DNA of 54,697 bases from Bacteroidales bacterium (GTDB lineage: Bacteria; Bacteroidota; Bacteroidia; Bacteroidales; UBA7960): assembly GCA_012521995.1 (NCBI GenBank), contig JAAYLH010000010.1, positions 1 through 54,697 of the forward strand. Direction: 5' to 3'. The position numbers and the translations under genes are program-made. Within the stretch, counting starts at the first letter, position 1; each line of letters begins with the position of its first letter. The notes under the pieces were generated by a model. It searched no databases. It saw nothing but the letters and a program-made list of their open reading frames with translations, and had not been told where the DNA came from. Positions 13,063 to 16,348 of the stretch are shown in pieces.

Positions 13063-13105
13063 AACTAAGGAATTAGTTGTATAACTAATAATTTAGTTAC
13101 CTTTG
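13063..13105 (+). promoter_or_regulatory. Phased four-half-site operator overlapping the blaI promoter
   Basis: Four half-sites alternate in orientation with an exact 10-base period: AACTAA 13063-13068, TTAGTT 13073-13078, AACTAA 13083-13088, TTAGTT 13093-13098. They form nested dyads, the longest being ATTAGTT-N4-AACTAAT at 13072-13089. The last half-site touches the -7 box TACCTTTG at 13098-13105. BlaI/MecI repressors bind dyads as dimers, often in pairs, so this is a likely autoregulatory operator. Confidence 0.75.
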
Positions 13106-13131: not shown

Positions 13132-13512
13132 ATGAATATGAAAGAACTTACGAAAGCTGAAGAGCAGGTCATGCAGATCCTTTGGGAGATCAAAACGGGT
13201 TTTGTAAAGGACATCCGCGACAAGTTTCGCGAACCCCGTCCTGCCATCACCACGGTTTCCACAATCGTGCGCATACTCGAGCAAAAAGGCTTTGTAAAGC
13301 ACAAGGCCTTTGGGAAATCTCATGAATACTATCCTGCCGTGGAAAAGAAAACCTATACCCGCGTCATGATGAAGGGGATCCTGATGAAGTACTTCAGTAA
13401 TTCTTTAAGACAAATGGTCTCCTTCTTCTCTCAGGAGAAGGGACTTACAGTCTCTGAATTGGAAGAACTCAAGCGGATCATCGATGAAGAAATCAGGAAA
13501 CAGGAAGAATAA
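13132..13512 (+). CDS. BlaI/MecI-family transcriptional repressor
   Basis: A 126-residue winged-helix repressor. The DNA-binding domain (residues 1 to about 75) shows the family pattern KAEEQVMQILWEI, then RPAITTVSTIVRILEQKGFVKH and the wing FGKSHEYYPAV. The C-terminal helices serve dimerisation. In Staphylococcus and relatives such repressors are cleaved after a membrane M56 protease senses a signal; here an M56 sensor is encoded two genes downstream, separated by a TPR gene. A phased operator and a good -7 box lie directly upstream, which points to autoregulation of this cluster. No beta-lactamase is adjacent, so the signal need not be an antibiotic. Confidence 0.94.
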   Translation: MNMKELTKAEEQVMQILWEIKTGFVKDIRDKFREPRPAITTVSTIVRILEQKGFVKHKAFGKSHEYYPAVEKKTYTRVMMKGILMKYFSNSLRQMVSFFSQEKGLTVSELEELKRIIDEEIRKQEE

Positions 13513-13559
13513 GAAGCGAGAGGTGAGGAGTGAGAGATGAGAAATAGGCAGTTGCAGAA

Positions 13560-13587
13560 ACTGTCAAATAAAAATGAAACTGACAGT
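13560..13587 (+). other. Hairpin between blaI and the TPR gene
   Basis: ACTGTCA (13560-13566) and TGACAGT (13581-13587) form a perfect 7-bp stem with a 14-base loop, 16 bases before the next ATG. No T-run follows, so it is not a standard terminator; an mRNA processing or stability element in the operon is possible. It is preceded by a purine-rich stretch of GAG(A/G)TGAG-like words at 13514-13545. Confidence 0.5.
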
Positions 13588-13602
13588 AAAAAACTTAACA
13601 AA

Positions 13603-14766
13603 ATGAGGGCATTGCTTAATTTCGGGTTGGTCTTCATAATTTCCTTCCAGGTGATTGGGCAGGATCGCATGGACTTACGGGCTCAGATCAGGGCATTGCA
13701 TGACCTGGAGGACCATCGTTCAATCATTCTTTTGCTTGATTCTGTTTTCGGAAGGACTCAACCCTCGGAAGAATTTACCTTTTATAAAGGCAGGGCTCTT
13801 TTTAATACAGGCCAGATTACAGAGGCCCGCGGGTTGCTTATTCCCCTTGAAACCGACAGTATTCTGGGCCCCGGGGCCACACAGCTCCTGGCTGTCATTG
13901 CCCAGCAACAAAGGAACAATACGGAAGCCCTTGGCTATTTGCTTAAATTAAGTCAATATTACCCTGATAACCCCCTATATCTTCAGCGGGTGGCACGGAT
14001 CTTTTATTCGGAAGGGAATTTTCCTGCAGCCATGAATTATATGCTTTCTGCTTATCGGTGCGACACCTTAAACCAAACTTCCATAGCCGAACTGGCTGAA
14101 ATATGGATGAAACTTGAGATGCCCGGGAATGCCTATCGCTTGTTAAGCGATGGGATTAAAATTTTCCCGGAGAGCTTACTTTTCAGAAAACAAATGGTTC
14201 CCGTTTGTTACCGGCGAAATAAGATGGTTGAAGTGATTGATCATGGTTCTTTCTTAACTGCGAGGGGCGATACCACTCCAACCGTGGTGAGGTTAAAGGC
14301 CTTTGCCTATTTCGATCTTGGTGAAATGGATAAATCGGAATTCTGGCTGGATTATCTTTTAAACAAAGACCTGACCAGCGAGGATGTTTGGTTTTATAAG
14401 GGGAAGGTGACCGATGCCAGGGGGAATAAAAATGAGGCCCTGGGGTATTATGAAAAGGCGGTGCACATGACCCTTTCGCCCAACTTTAACCCCTTCCTTC
14501 TACAATTGGCTATTACACTTGGGGAGAACCAGCAATACCAGGAATCCATCAGATGGCTGCAAACCGGACGGCTCTTTAAGGATAGCCCTGAACTGATATA
14601 CCAGCTTGCCAGAAACTTCGACCTGTTTTACCAGGATAAGCAGCCAGCTCTGCAACATTACCAAATGTTCATAGAATTGGCAGGTGAGAACTCTGAAGAC
14701 CAGCGTGCCTATGCCATTCAGCGGGTCAGGGAGCTACGTGAATTGTTGCATCTTTTGGGACAATAA
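13603..14766 (+). CDS. Exported TPR-repeat protein in the blaI-M56 cluster
   Basis: A protein of 387 residues from the ATG at 13603. That start gives a normal signal peptide (MRALLNF, hydrophobic core, cleavage near VIGQ); the longer reading frame from 13537 would prepend a polar, Lys/Asn-rich stretch. The rest is a helical solenoid with tetratricopeptide-like units, for example around GNFPAAMNYMLSAYRCD, LGEMDKSEFWLDYLL, KNEALGYYEKAVHM and QQYQESIRWLQTGR. It probably acts as a periplasmic scaffold. It sits between the BlaI-like repressor and the M56 sensor, 13 bases before the latter, so it may be a partner in signal sensing. This role is inferred from position only. Confidence 0.85.
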   Translation: MRALLNFGLVFIISFQVIGQDRMDLRAQIRALHDLEDHRSIILLLDSVFGRTQPSEEFTFYKGRALFNTGQITEARGLLIPLETDSILGPGATQLLAVIAQQQRNNTEALGYLLKLSQYYPDNPLYLQRVARIFYSEGNFPAAMNYMLSAYRCDTLNQTSIAELAEIWMKLEMPGNAYRLLSDGIKIFPESLLFRKQMVPVCYRRNKMVEVIDHGSFLTARGDTTPTVVRLKAFAYFDLGEMDKSEFWLDYLLNKDLTSEDVWFYKGKVTDARGNKNEALGYYEKAVHMTLSPNFNPFLLQLAITLGENQQYQESIRWLQTGRLFKDSPELIYQLARNFDLFYQDKQPALQHYQMFIELAGENSEDQRAYAIQRVRELRELLHLLGQ

Positions 14767-14779
14767 AAAAACTTTGATC

Positions 14780-16348
14780 ATGGAAACCTTTTTCAAATTT
14801 CTGTTCTGGACCTCTGCCTATTTCTTCCTTCTGGGCCTTACCTATCAATTCCTGGTAAAGCCGCAGGATAATCCAGCCTTCTCAAGGGCTTTTATCCTGG
14901 GAGGGCTGATGCTCTCCTTGATTTCAGGTCTGGGTTTCCTGCTTAGGACCTCCCTGATCACGGTCTTACCTTCGCCCGGAGCCCTTACCTTGCCTGAAGT
15001 TATTGTATATGCCTTTGATGGACTTGAAAAATCAAGCGGGGAGTTACTTCTGCGCCTATTCTCGGTTAAGGGCCTGGTGATTTTGACCTTAGTAGTGAGT
15101 GCCCTGATTGCCCTACGCTTTATGGGTAGTCTTTTTTATCTGCTGGGTATGGGAAAAATTCAGAAGAGAATAAGGATTGACGGCCTGTGGGTAATCCCGA
15201 TCCGGGGAGAGCGCTCTCCCTTCAGTTTCTTTCGTATGGTTTTCATTCCTGAGCGACTGATCGGTGAGCCTTCCCTTGAACAAGTGTTGCTCCATGAACA
15301 AGCCCACATTCAAAAGCTGCATTCCTTGGATCTGATCTTTACCGAATTTCTGACAATCATATTCTGGTTTCATCCTGCCATCTGGTACCTGAGGCGGGAA
15401 CTTAAACTCCAGCACGAATACGAAGCCGACCGCTACGTCCTCAGGTTTTCCGACAGGCTGGAATATCAGCAATTGTTGCTTAATTTTTCCTTTAATAACG
15501 ATGGCTTGCCCATCACCAACCCATTTAATTTTTCACCCTTAAAAAAACGAATTAAGATGATGAACAAGACAAGTATGGAATCCCGCAACAAGGCCGCGCT
15601 AAGTCTTTTTGCCTCGCTGGTTATGTTTGCCGGGATGTTCCTTCTGCAATCAATGGATTTGCAGGCCAATCAGTTGAGCCTCAACACCTCCGCCCTTTTA
15701 GAGGTATCGGTTCAGTCCCTGGATTTTCTCAGTGCCCCCCCACCTGGACGTGCTGCTGAAACCCAGGTCCCTCCCCGGGAGGCCAAACCGGACAATGAGG
15801 AGTTCTTTGTCGTTGTGGAAAACGCGCCAAAATTCCCCGGGGGAATGGAAGCCCTGGGTCAATTTATGTCACAAAATGTCAAGTATCCCCCCGAAGCACG
15901 TCGGGCTGGGGTTCAGGGGACTGTTTTTGTTTCCTTCATCGTTGAAAAAGACGGGAAAGTTTCCACAGTCAAGGTTATTCGCGGAGTCTCTGAGGCCCTC
16001 GACATGGAAGCCGTCAGGGTGGTCAGTGCCATGCCCGACTGGGAACCCGGCACTCAGCGAGGAGAAAATGTACGGGTCCAGTTTAACCTGCCTGTCCGCT
16101 TTGCCCTGGATGTGGATAAGGAATCGGGTTCAGCCTCTGTTGAGGAAAGCATCAATGTTAGGATTTCTGACCAGCCTGTCTTCTTTATTGATGGGGTCAA
16201 AGTAGATACCGGCAACAAGAGCCTCGATGAGGTCATTACCCCTGATGAGATCGAAAGCATTACGGTTTATAAGGATGGGAAGGGCCGCGAGTTGTTTGGC
16301 TATGATAATGTGATTGCCATTACCCGCAAAAAGACCCGTGAAGAATAA
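14780..16348 (+). CDS. BlaR1-like M56 metalloprotease sensor with TonB C-terminal and receptor-plug-like tail
   Basis: A 522-residue membrane protein, start set at ATG 14780 (13 bases after the TPR gene stop) because it begins with the expected first membrane helix. Four membrane helices flank an M56 zinc protease domain with H172-E173-Q-A-H176 and a downstream QHEYEAD segment. After a further hydrophobic helix near 275-300 and a Pro-rich linker comes a TonB C-terminal domain (about 350-440: PKFPGGMEALGQFM ... YPPEARRAGVQG). A tail (about 464-515) resembles the plug motif of TonB-dependent receptors (FIDGV ... ITPDEIESITVYKDGKG ... VIAITRKK). In the BlaR1 paradigm the protease inactivates its partner repressor, here the BlaI-like protein upstream. 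The extra modules suggest contact with outer-membrane or envelope proteins. Convergent with the next gene, 17 bases apart. Confidence 0.93.
   Translation: METFFKFLFWTSAYFFLLGLTYQFLVKPQDNPAFSRAFILGGLMLSLISGLGFLLRTSLITVLPSPGALTLPEVIVYAFDGLEKSSGELLLRLFSVKGLVILTLVVSALIALRFMGSLFYLLGMGKIQKRIRIDGLWVIPIRGERSPFSFFRMVFIPERLIGEPSLEQVLLHEQAHIQKLHSLDLIFTEFLTIIFWFHPAIWYLRRELKLQHEYEADRYVLRFSDRLEYQQLLLNFSFNNDGLPITNPFNFSPLKKRIKMMNKTSMESRNKAALSLFASLVMFAGMFLLQSMDLQANQLSLNTSALLEVSVQSLDFLSAPPPGRAAETQVPPREAKPDNEEFFVVVENAPKFPGGMEALGQFMSQNVKYPPEARRAGVQGTVFVSFIVEKDGKVSTVKVIRGVSEALDMEAVRVVSAMPDWEPGTQRGENVRVQFNLPVRFALDVDKESGSASVEESINVRISDQPVFFIDGVKVDTGNKSLDEVITPDEIESITVYKDGKGRELFGYDNVIAITRKKTREE

Follow-up and report, generated by a model that had tools for sequence, protein, structure and literature searches.

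Operators of BlaI-type repressors have been described in Clostridium thermocellum. According to the accessible parts of that study, BlaI_1845 recognizes four GACTAT-type half-sites, arranged as inverted pairs, ahead of its own blaI-blaR1 operon, and each target of BlaI_0696 carries two GTCTAT dyads, with repeats five nucleotides apart (PMC8457756). Binding was followed by DAP-seq and by EMSA with single-site probes, and the four-protomer pattern is called by the authors an apparently strict requirement (PMC8457756). As presented in excerpts of two reports, the BlaI/MecI repressors of Staphylococcus aureus are controlled by the M56 peptidases BlaR1/MecR1 in a repressor-protease logic (PMC9834060, PMC7593790). 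The S. aureus-type operator core is TACA/TGTA, as stated in the available part of a study of the CopY repressors (PMC7253601). In that same part, the cop operator of CopR-CopY is given the consensus RNYKACANNYGTMRNY, a 16-bp palindrome, and CopY promoters are said to carry often two operators, proposed to block the -35 element and the polymerase; in Streptococcus pneumoniae, two operators gave CopY no significantly higher affinity (PMC7253601). A search of the open-licence PMC literature (titles and abstract openings) returned no operator, signal, binding or expression data for a BlaI of the Bacteroidota. In Porphyromonas gingivalis, a BlaI-family regulator gene and an M56 gene bearing the following locus tag occupy separate rows of a table; no operator is given in the accessible part of this article (PMC10470040), nor in PMC9780415 or PMC4757040.

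The promoter region and operon of the window

The window is the whole stretch of DNA that was analysed, 54,697 nucleotides from a Bacteroidales bacterium. Its positions 13063-13105 read AACTAAGGAATTAGTTGTATAACTAATAATTTAGTTACCTTTG. A sequence-only reading had described here an array of four half-sites with exact 10-bp phasing, the last one lying at the -7 box, and direct reading bears this out: the half-sites start at 13063, 13073, 13083 and 13093, each 10 bp further on, and the fourth shares one base with the -7 box. The features are the following, all read from the sequence.

13063..13078, + strand: dyad 1, AACTAA-GGAA-TTAGTT (half-sites AACTAA 13063-13068 and TTAGTT 13073-13078), conserved in the promoter consensus
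13076..13079, + strand: putative -33 element GTTG, 18 bp ahead of the -7 box
13083..13098, + strand: dyad 2, AACTAA-TAAT-TTAGTT (half-sites AACTAA 13083-13088 and TTAGTT 13093-13098), occupying the -33/-7 spacer
13098..13105, + strand: -7 box TACCTTTG (TAnnTTTG), found at a fixed offset at many loci
13132..13512, + strand: blaI, BlaI/MecI-type repressor of 126 aa with recognition helix ITTVSTIVR (PF03965, E 2.3e-30)
13537..14766, + strand: TPR protein, operon member (TPR_2, E 6.6e-12)
14780..16348, + strand: BlaR1-type M56 metallopeptidase with a TonB C-terminal domain (PF05569, E 2.2e-13; PF03544, E 1e-19)

The -33 and -7 elements are putative ones, assigned by the Bacteroidota promoter consensus. 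The upstream side of the promoter is partly covered by dyad 1, whose last half-site enters the -33 TTG. The same arrangement is seen in the consensus of the promoters compared below, where dyad 2 fills the -33/-7 spacer, dyad 1 reaches into the -33 TTG and the G following TAGTT recurs across loci. A hairpin in the mRNA leader would be unlikely, because both dyads precede the -7 box.

Exact AACTAA-N4-TTAGTT occurs twice in the window, both times at this site, and three times in the whole 3.26-Mb genome. When up to two mismatches are allowed, the window contains four sites against 1.23 expected, a number reached in 5 of 100 shuffles. Local GC content is 30%; with this local base composition, the 24 specified bases have a log10 P of about -12.6 at a given place.

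Behind the operator, the order of genes is blaI, TPR gene, M56/TonB gene. The BlaI protein belongs to the Penicillinase_R family, the PF03965 match spanning positions 1-115 of 115, and it matches MecI (1okr) with E 8.7e-10. Its S97-F98-F99 segment, nearly invariant in our alignment A1, presumably corresponds to the S. aureus cleavage site. The M56 translation contains HEQAH, and with this adjacent M56 gene the locus has the composition of a BlaI-BlaR1 pair. The M56/TonB peptidase is presumed to be the sensor/protease that inactivates BlaI. Within it, Pfam (E 0.001) finds M56 and TonB_C only, with no transpeptidase-like beta-lactam sensor or penicillin-binding domain; thus, the peptidase of the window is not a beta-lactam BlaR1. 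Among the 73 group-A loci defined below, an M56-like gene is found in the downstream DNA examined at 63, and a TPR-like gene similar to that of the window at only three.

Conservation of the double dyad ahead of blaI genes

A first set of loci was chosen by protein. A PF03965 search of 98 genomes (97 relatives besides that of the window) gave a match in 81; 30 loci from this search, 80 further regions, a second locus of the window's genome (L002) and the window itself provided 113 BlaI proteins, L003 yielding none at threshold. According to their recognition helix, they were divided into group A (73), group B (35) and others (5). All 4- and 5-base inverted repeats were then enumerated without bias in the 400 bp upstream, with five dinucleotide-preserving shuffles for comparison. 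In group A, ACTA-N6-TAGT tops the list (51/73 loci, shuffled mean 1.0) and AACTA-N6-TAGTT is the top 5-base inverted repeat (47/73, shuffled mean 0), while TAGTT-N4-AACTA is present at 37 of the 73 loci (shuffled mean 0). Group B, characterized by a TTTLK helix, has TACGA-N6-TCGTA at 34 of 35 loci. The A dyad ACTA-N6-TAGT occurs at none of the 35 B loci, and the B dyad at one of the 73 A loci.

A second set was obtained by a protein-only scan with alignment A1, from which the best 80 of 587 loci were retained, chiefly from Bacteroidales and Cytophagales, with some Sphingobacteriales, Ignavibacteria and others. Four of them (L278, L279, L280, L293), with the same coding DNA as earlier loci, were dropped, leaving 76 further loci. 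Within 300 bp upstream, ACTA-N6-TAGT was found at least once at 62 of these 76 and at least twice at 51, against one dyad in 7 and two in none of 423 control windows located downstream. Exact AACTA-N6-TAGTT lies upstream at 58/76, and a pair with 20-bp spacing at 41/76. Before removal of the repeats, the 80 loci gave 64 with at least one dyad, 53 with at least two and 43 with a 20-bp pair (controls, 8 and 0 of 439). One genome assembled from a metagenome and labelled Candidatus Aminicenantes (L286) encodes a BlaI 59% identical to that of the window and has the same 20-bp dyad pair, through either transfer or misbinning. Among cultured bacteria, arrays of this kind occur in Mangrovibacterium marinum DSM 28823 (L326, with three dyads) and Pontibacter chinhatensis (L356).

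Starting from the pattern, 395 genomes of the phylum were scanned for a double dyad with a gap of 1-9 bp, the reversed word being used as a control. The double dyad was found in 54 genomes and the reversed control in none. At E 1e-15, BlaI is present in all 54 pair-bearing genomes versus 190 of the 395 overall (Fisher p 7e-20, the genomes not being independent); no pair occurs in the 205 genomes that lack BlaI at this threshold. Of 67 pairs, 60 lie at most 200 bp upstream of a BlaI domain, four at 446-513 bp and one at 2,580 bp. The two other double dyads, L276 (G215:C1:1976531) and L277 (G409:C9:138333), have no BlaI near them among the matches listed. In most family genomes, single dyads are outnumbered by the reversed control word (three versus 13 in the window's own genome); because the control word is the commoner, a single dyad says little by itself. 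The sequence-only reading had staked its proposal on conservation of the pattern upstream of other blaI-M56 clusters, and the proposal survived in both protein-chosen sets (47/73 and 58/76) as well as in the phylum scan. The same comparisons (47/73, 62/76 and 60/67 pairs near BlaI) support its assignment of the two dyads on the promoter to the adjacent BlaI.

Exact ACTA-N6-TAGT is missing within 400 bp at 22 of the 73 group-A loci. Several of these belong to other helix subclasses, L030 is truncated by a contig end, and six carry the pair at the head of the operon. At L016, L017, L026 and L051, a 20-bp pair is located 0.9-1.2 kb upstream, ahead of an intervening lipoprotein-like gene (Fib_succ_major at L017). 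At L019 and L045, the pair stands ahead of a gene whose product is a similar, long protein (L368, L369), that of L368 with a thioredoxin-like domain. Therefore, the operator need not lie right beside blaI; its place can be the head of the operon. A gene also intervenes at L013, with no pair in the 1,006 bp examined. At L047 and L075, both from a single genus, the gene just ahead of blaI encodes a ParA-like ATPase, and the 400 bp upstream contain no dyad that can be recognised. The pair of G041 stands in front of an M56/TonB gene; none of the listed ORFs of at least 100 aa there is a blaI.

Recognition-helix classes and operator words

One hundred further regions were added, 98 of them picked as BlaI loci, and the recognition helix then served to class 211 family-selected proteins. 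The 98 added loci were hand-picked from the matches listed, favouring BlaIs without a listed pair, and the class counts below are not population rates. The counts leave out 27 pattern-selected proteins, and the BlaI set leaves out L001, L004-L007, L118 and L148-L177. The shuffles used for the helix classes permuted 2-mers, which makes them weaker than the dinucleotide-preserving ones of the first set.

Ser class: AACTA-N6-TAGTT, 56/78
Met class: TACTA-N6-TAGTA, 44/51
Ala class: TTCTA 9/21, TACTA 7/21
TLK class: TACGA-N6-TCGTA, 37/38
TTxAS class: TACGA-N5-TCGTA, 5/5
H[FY]N subclass of Ser proteins: AACTA-N7-TAGTT 5/13, N6 4/13

For helices having both Ser and Arg, the outer base is A in 60 cases and T in none, 28 having no exact N6 dyad; for Met helices, it is T in 44, with seven lacking a dyad. 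Exceptions exist: AACTA is read without the Ser and Arg combination by L059, L243 and the pattern-selected L120, and TACTA by L239, L244 and L275, which have Ser with Lys. An independent-contrast test of helix against operator base was underpowered, with one independent pair on supported branches and seven on the best tree; exceptions amounted to 5/120 rows for Ser and 4/120 for Arg, these rows being related and partly hand-picked. In these sequences, the operator word appears to follow the class of the BlaI recognition helix, as a correlation with exceptions, and Ser43 and Arg47 probably help to set the AACTA word.

The geometry of group B is of another kind. Its first dyad occupies the spacer; the second follows the -7 box, and in 32 of 33 cases the centres are separated by 25-27 bp. 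The window's own genome contains such a BlaI-M56 paralogue (L002:1400-1480; G000:C90), where TACGA-type dyads flank TAnnTTTG, their centres 27 bp apart. We lean towards the view that the BlaIs of Bacteroidota are diversified paralogues with mutually exclusive words set by the helix, xT[V/I/L]ST..R reading AACTA, xTxMT TACTA, non-Tyr xTxAT TTCTACA, TTTLK TACGA-N6 and TTxAS TACGA-N5, and that two of the classes also differ in how their two dimers are placed (AACTA, 20 bp apart and upstream of the -7 box; TACGA, 25-27 bp apart and around it). If so, paralogues in one cell would be insulated from each other and operators would be predictable from protein sequence. The helix-to-word table offers a testable recognition code, and an AACTA/TACGA paralogue pair in one genome would be a natural case of repressor insulation.

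The BlaI of L096, whose helix core is preceded by an Arg (KPARTTIATILN), is associated with two GTCTA-N6-TAGAC dyads; they are spaced by 40 bp and lie at most 90 bp before the BlaI domain. These dyads resemble the GTCTAT half-site of C. thermocellum BlaI_0696, as given in the accessible part of its description (PMC8457756).

Repression model and comparison with known operators

We hold with high confidence, on comparative sequence evidence, that the two-dyad array serves the adjacent BlaI as an autoregulatory operator, where two dimers would block the promoter until released by the M56/TonB peptidase. Very probably, a BlaI-type repressor would shut off its own operon at this switch site. One BlaI dimer would bind each 16-bp dyad, the distance of 20 bp between centres corresponding to about two turns of the helix. 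RNA polymerase would be excluded jointly by dimer 2, placed in the -33/-7 spacer, and dimer 1, covering the -33 side. Upon an envelope signal, the M56/TonB peptidase encoded on the same transcript would cleave BlaI, and expression of blaI, the TPR gene and the M56 gene would be released. This repressor-protease logic is modelled on the S. aureus pair, as far as the accessible parts of the reports describe it (PMC9834060, PMC7593790). Binding by the BlaI of the window, cooperativity, repression, proteolytic release and the signal are inferred; what the computation shows is the site with its conservation, favoured spacing, place in the promoter, link to blaI and operon heads, and correlation with helix class.

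Consecutive dyads are spaced by 20 bp in 37 of 46 cases in the first set and 48 of 73 in the second. Among the 67 phylum pairs, the gap is 4 bp in 48, 2 bp in 14, 1 bp in three, 8 bp in one and 9 bp in one. The pairs with 18-bp (14/67) or 17-bp (3/67) spacing, together with some third dyads at 32-99 bp in the first set, indicate that exact 10-bp phasing is not universal. At loci with a 20-bp pair, the start of the -7 box has an offset of 34 or 36 relative to dyad 1 in 30/36 cases of the first set; a consensus -7 box is found at these offsets at only 17/41 of the second-set loci, TAnnTTTG being absent there in the rest. Cooperation between the dimers is proposed because of the preferred spacing, its independence of the shift between offsets 34 and 36, and the triple arrays, and the conserved spacing suggests that the dimers may be coupled.

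Less likely, the dyads are indeed a BlaI operator to which dimers bind independently, 20 bp reflecting only the room left by the -33 and -7 elements. That dyad 2 fills the spacer and dyad 1 supplies the -33 TTG of the consensus would agree with this, as would the 25-27-bp spacing of group B, which sets the dimers on roughly opposite faces of the helix; the pneumococcal CopY affinity result, from the accessible part of PMC7253601, is likewise a caution on cooperativity here. It should, however, be noted that the 20-bp spacing is kept for either offset of the -7 box, although the box moves by 2 bp between them (13 loci versus 17). Moreover, several triple arrays retain the 20-bp step outside the promoter core (three dyads in 20-bp steps at 3/76 second-set loci), and none of the 67 pairs has a gap of 3, 5, 6 or 7 bp, even if 2 and 1 bp are represented.

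That the dyads are an element of another regulator or a general promoter feature, BlaI being merely nearby, is improbable. What could speak for it is the third exact dyad of the genome (L004:1501-1516; G000:C99:90536-90551), which lies between purN and acpP, 139 bp upstream of acpP. Thirty acpP loci were fetched, 26 of them with more than 300 bp upstream. Twelve of these 26 family genomes have exact AACTA-N6-TAGTT ahead of acpP, at a distance of about 138-143 bp; five more have it with one mismatch, two of which (G032, G044) are genomes without a BlaI match. The dyad has two mismatches in G005, and none is found at this place in 8/26 (G001, G014, G021, G024, G025, G027, G035, G037). Nevertheless, nearly all phylum pairs (60/67) adjoin blaI, pairs are absent where BlaI is (205 genomes, E 1e-15), and the word changes with the class of the BlaI recognition helix. 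The search elsewhere in the genome, by which the earlier reading hoped to define a regulon, gave only this one further exact site; a wider regulon in the window's genome is not supported. Chance palindromes in AT-rich DNA, for which one could invoke the 70% AT of the region and the two-mismatch matches to single dyads that arise by chance in the window, are refuted by all conservation tests (group-A loci, second set, phylum scan).

The AACTA word, the 20-bp rule, the fit to the promoter and the helix table appear undescribed so far in the open-licence PMC literature; the four-site layout is already known from one Clostridium. A confirmed operator would give a handle on the regulons and on the envelope signal read by M56/TonB sensors, in a phylum where 190 of 395 sampled genomes have BlaI at E 1e-15, the M56 partner having been checked only at the first-set loci.

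With respect to the CopY consensus given in the accessible part of PMC7253601, AACTA-N6-TAGTT fits all ten outer positions RNYKA-N6-TMRNY of RNYKACANNYGTMRNY, with no outer mismatch in either dyad of the window. The inner CA/TG of the core is replaced by A/T and free bases, and the CopY repressor is metal-sensing. Neither dyad has the Gram-positive TACANNTGTA core: both differ at consensus positions 6, 7 and 11, and dyad 1 also at position 10. The TTCTA class of Bacteroidota (nine sites) reads TTCTACAnnTGTAGAA, with C (83%) and A (89%) beside the half-site; it contains TACA-NN-TGTA in the same register, and the TACA core overlaps the CTA of the window site. The idea of a distinct operator type thus stands only in part: the word departs from the core inside the CopY consensus, but its frame is in CopY register, and GACTAT pairs already occur with the Gram-positive BlaI_1845.

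The S. aureus pairs provide a homologous repressor and M56 peptidase, as far as the parts of PMC9834060 and PMC7593790 at hand describe them. In alignment with repressors of known structure (1okr, 1sax, 1sd4, 1xsd), Ser43 of the window BlaI aligns with an Arg of the MecI helix. Unlike S. aureus BlaR1/MecR1, the peptidase of the window has TonB_C and no Pfam-detected penicillin-binding domain. The C. thermocellum BlaIs, as described in the accessible parts of PMC8457756, differ from the window in coming from a Firmicute and in their other outer bases and spacing; no 20-bp rule, overlap with the -7 box or helix correlation is found for them in these parts. Like the window system, for which autoregulation is proposed and where two inverted repeats upstream of the BlaI's own operon match the four-protomer layout at the level of sequence, they are autoregulatory, with BlaR1 in the operon, a shared CTA core and four half-sites forming two inverted pairs.
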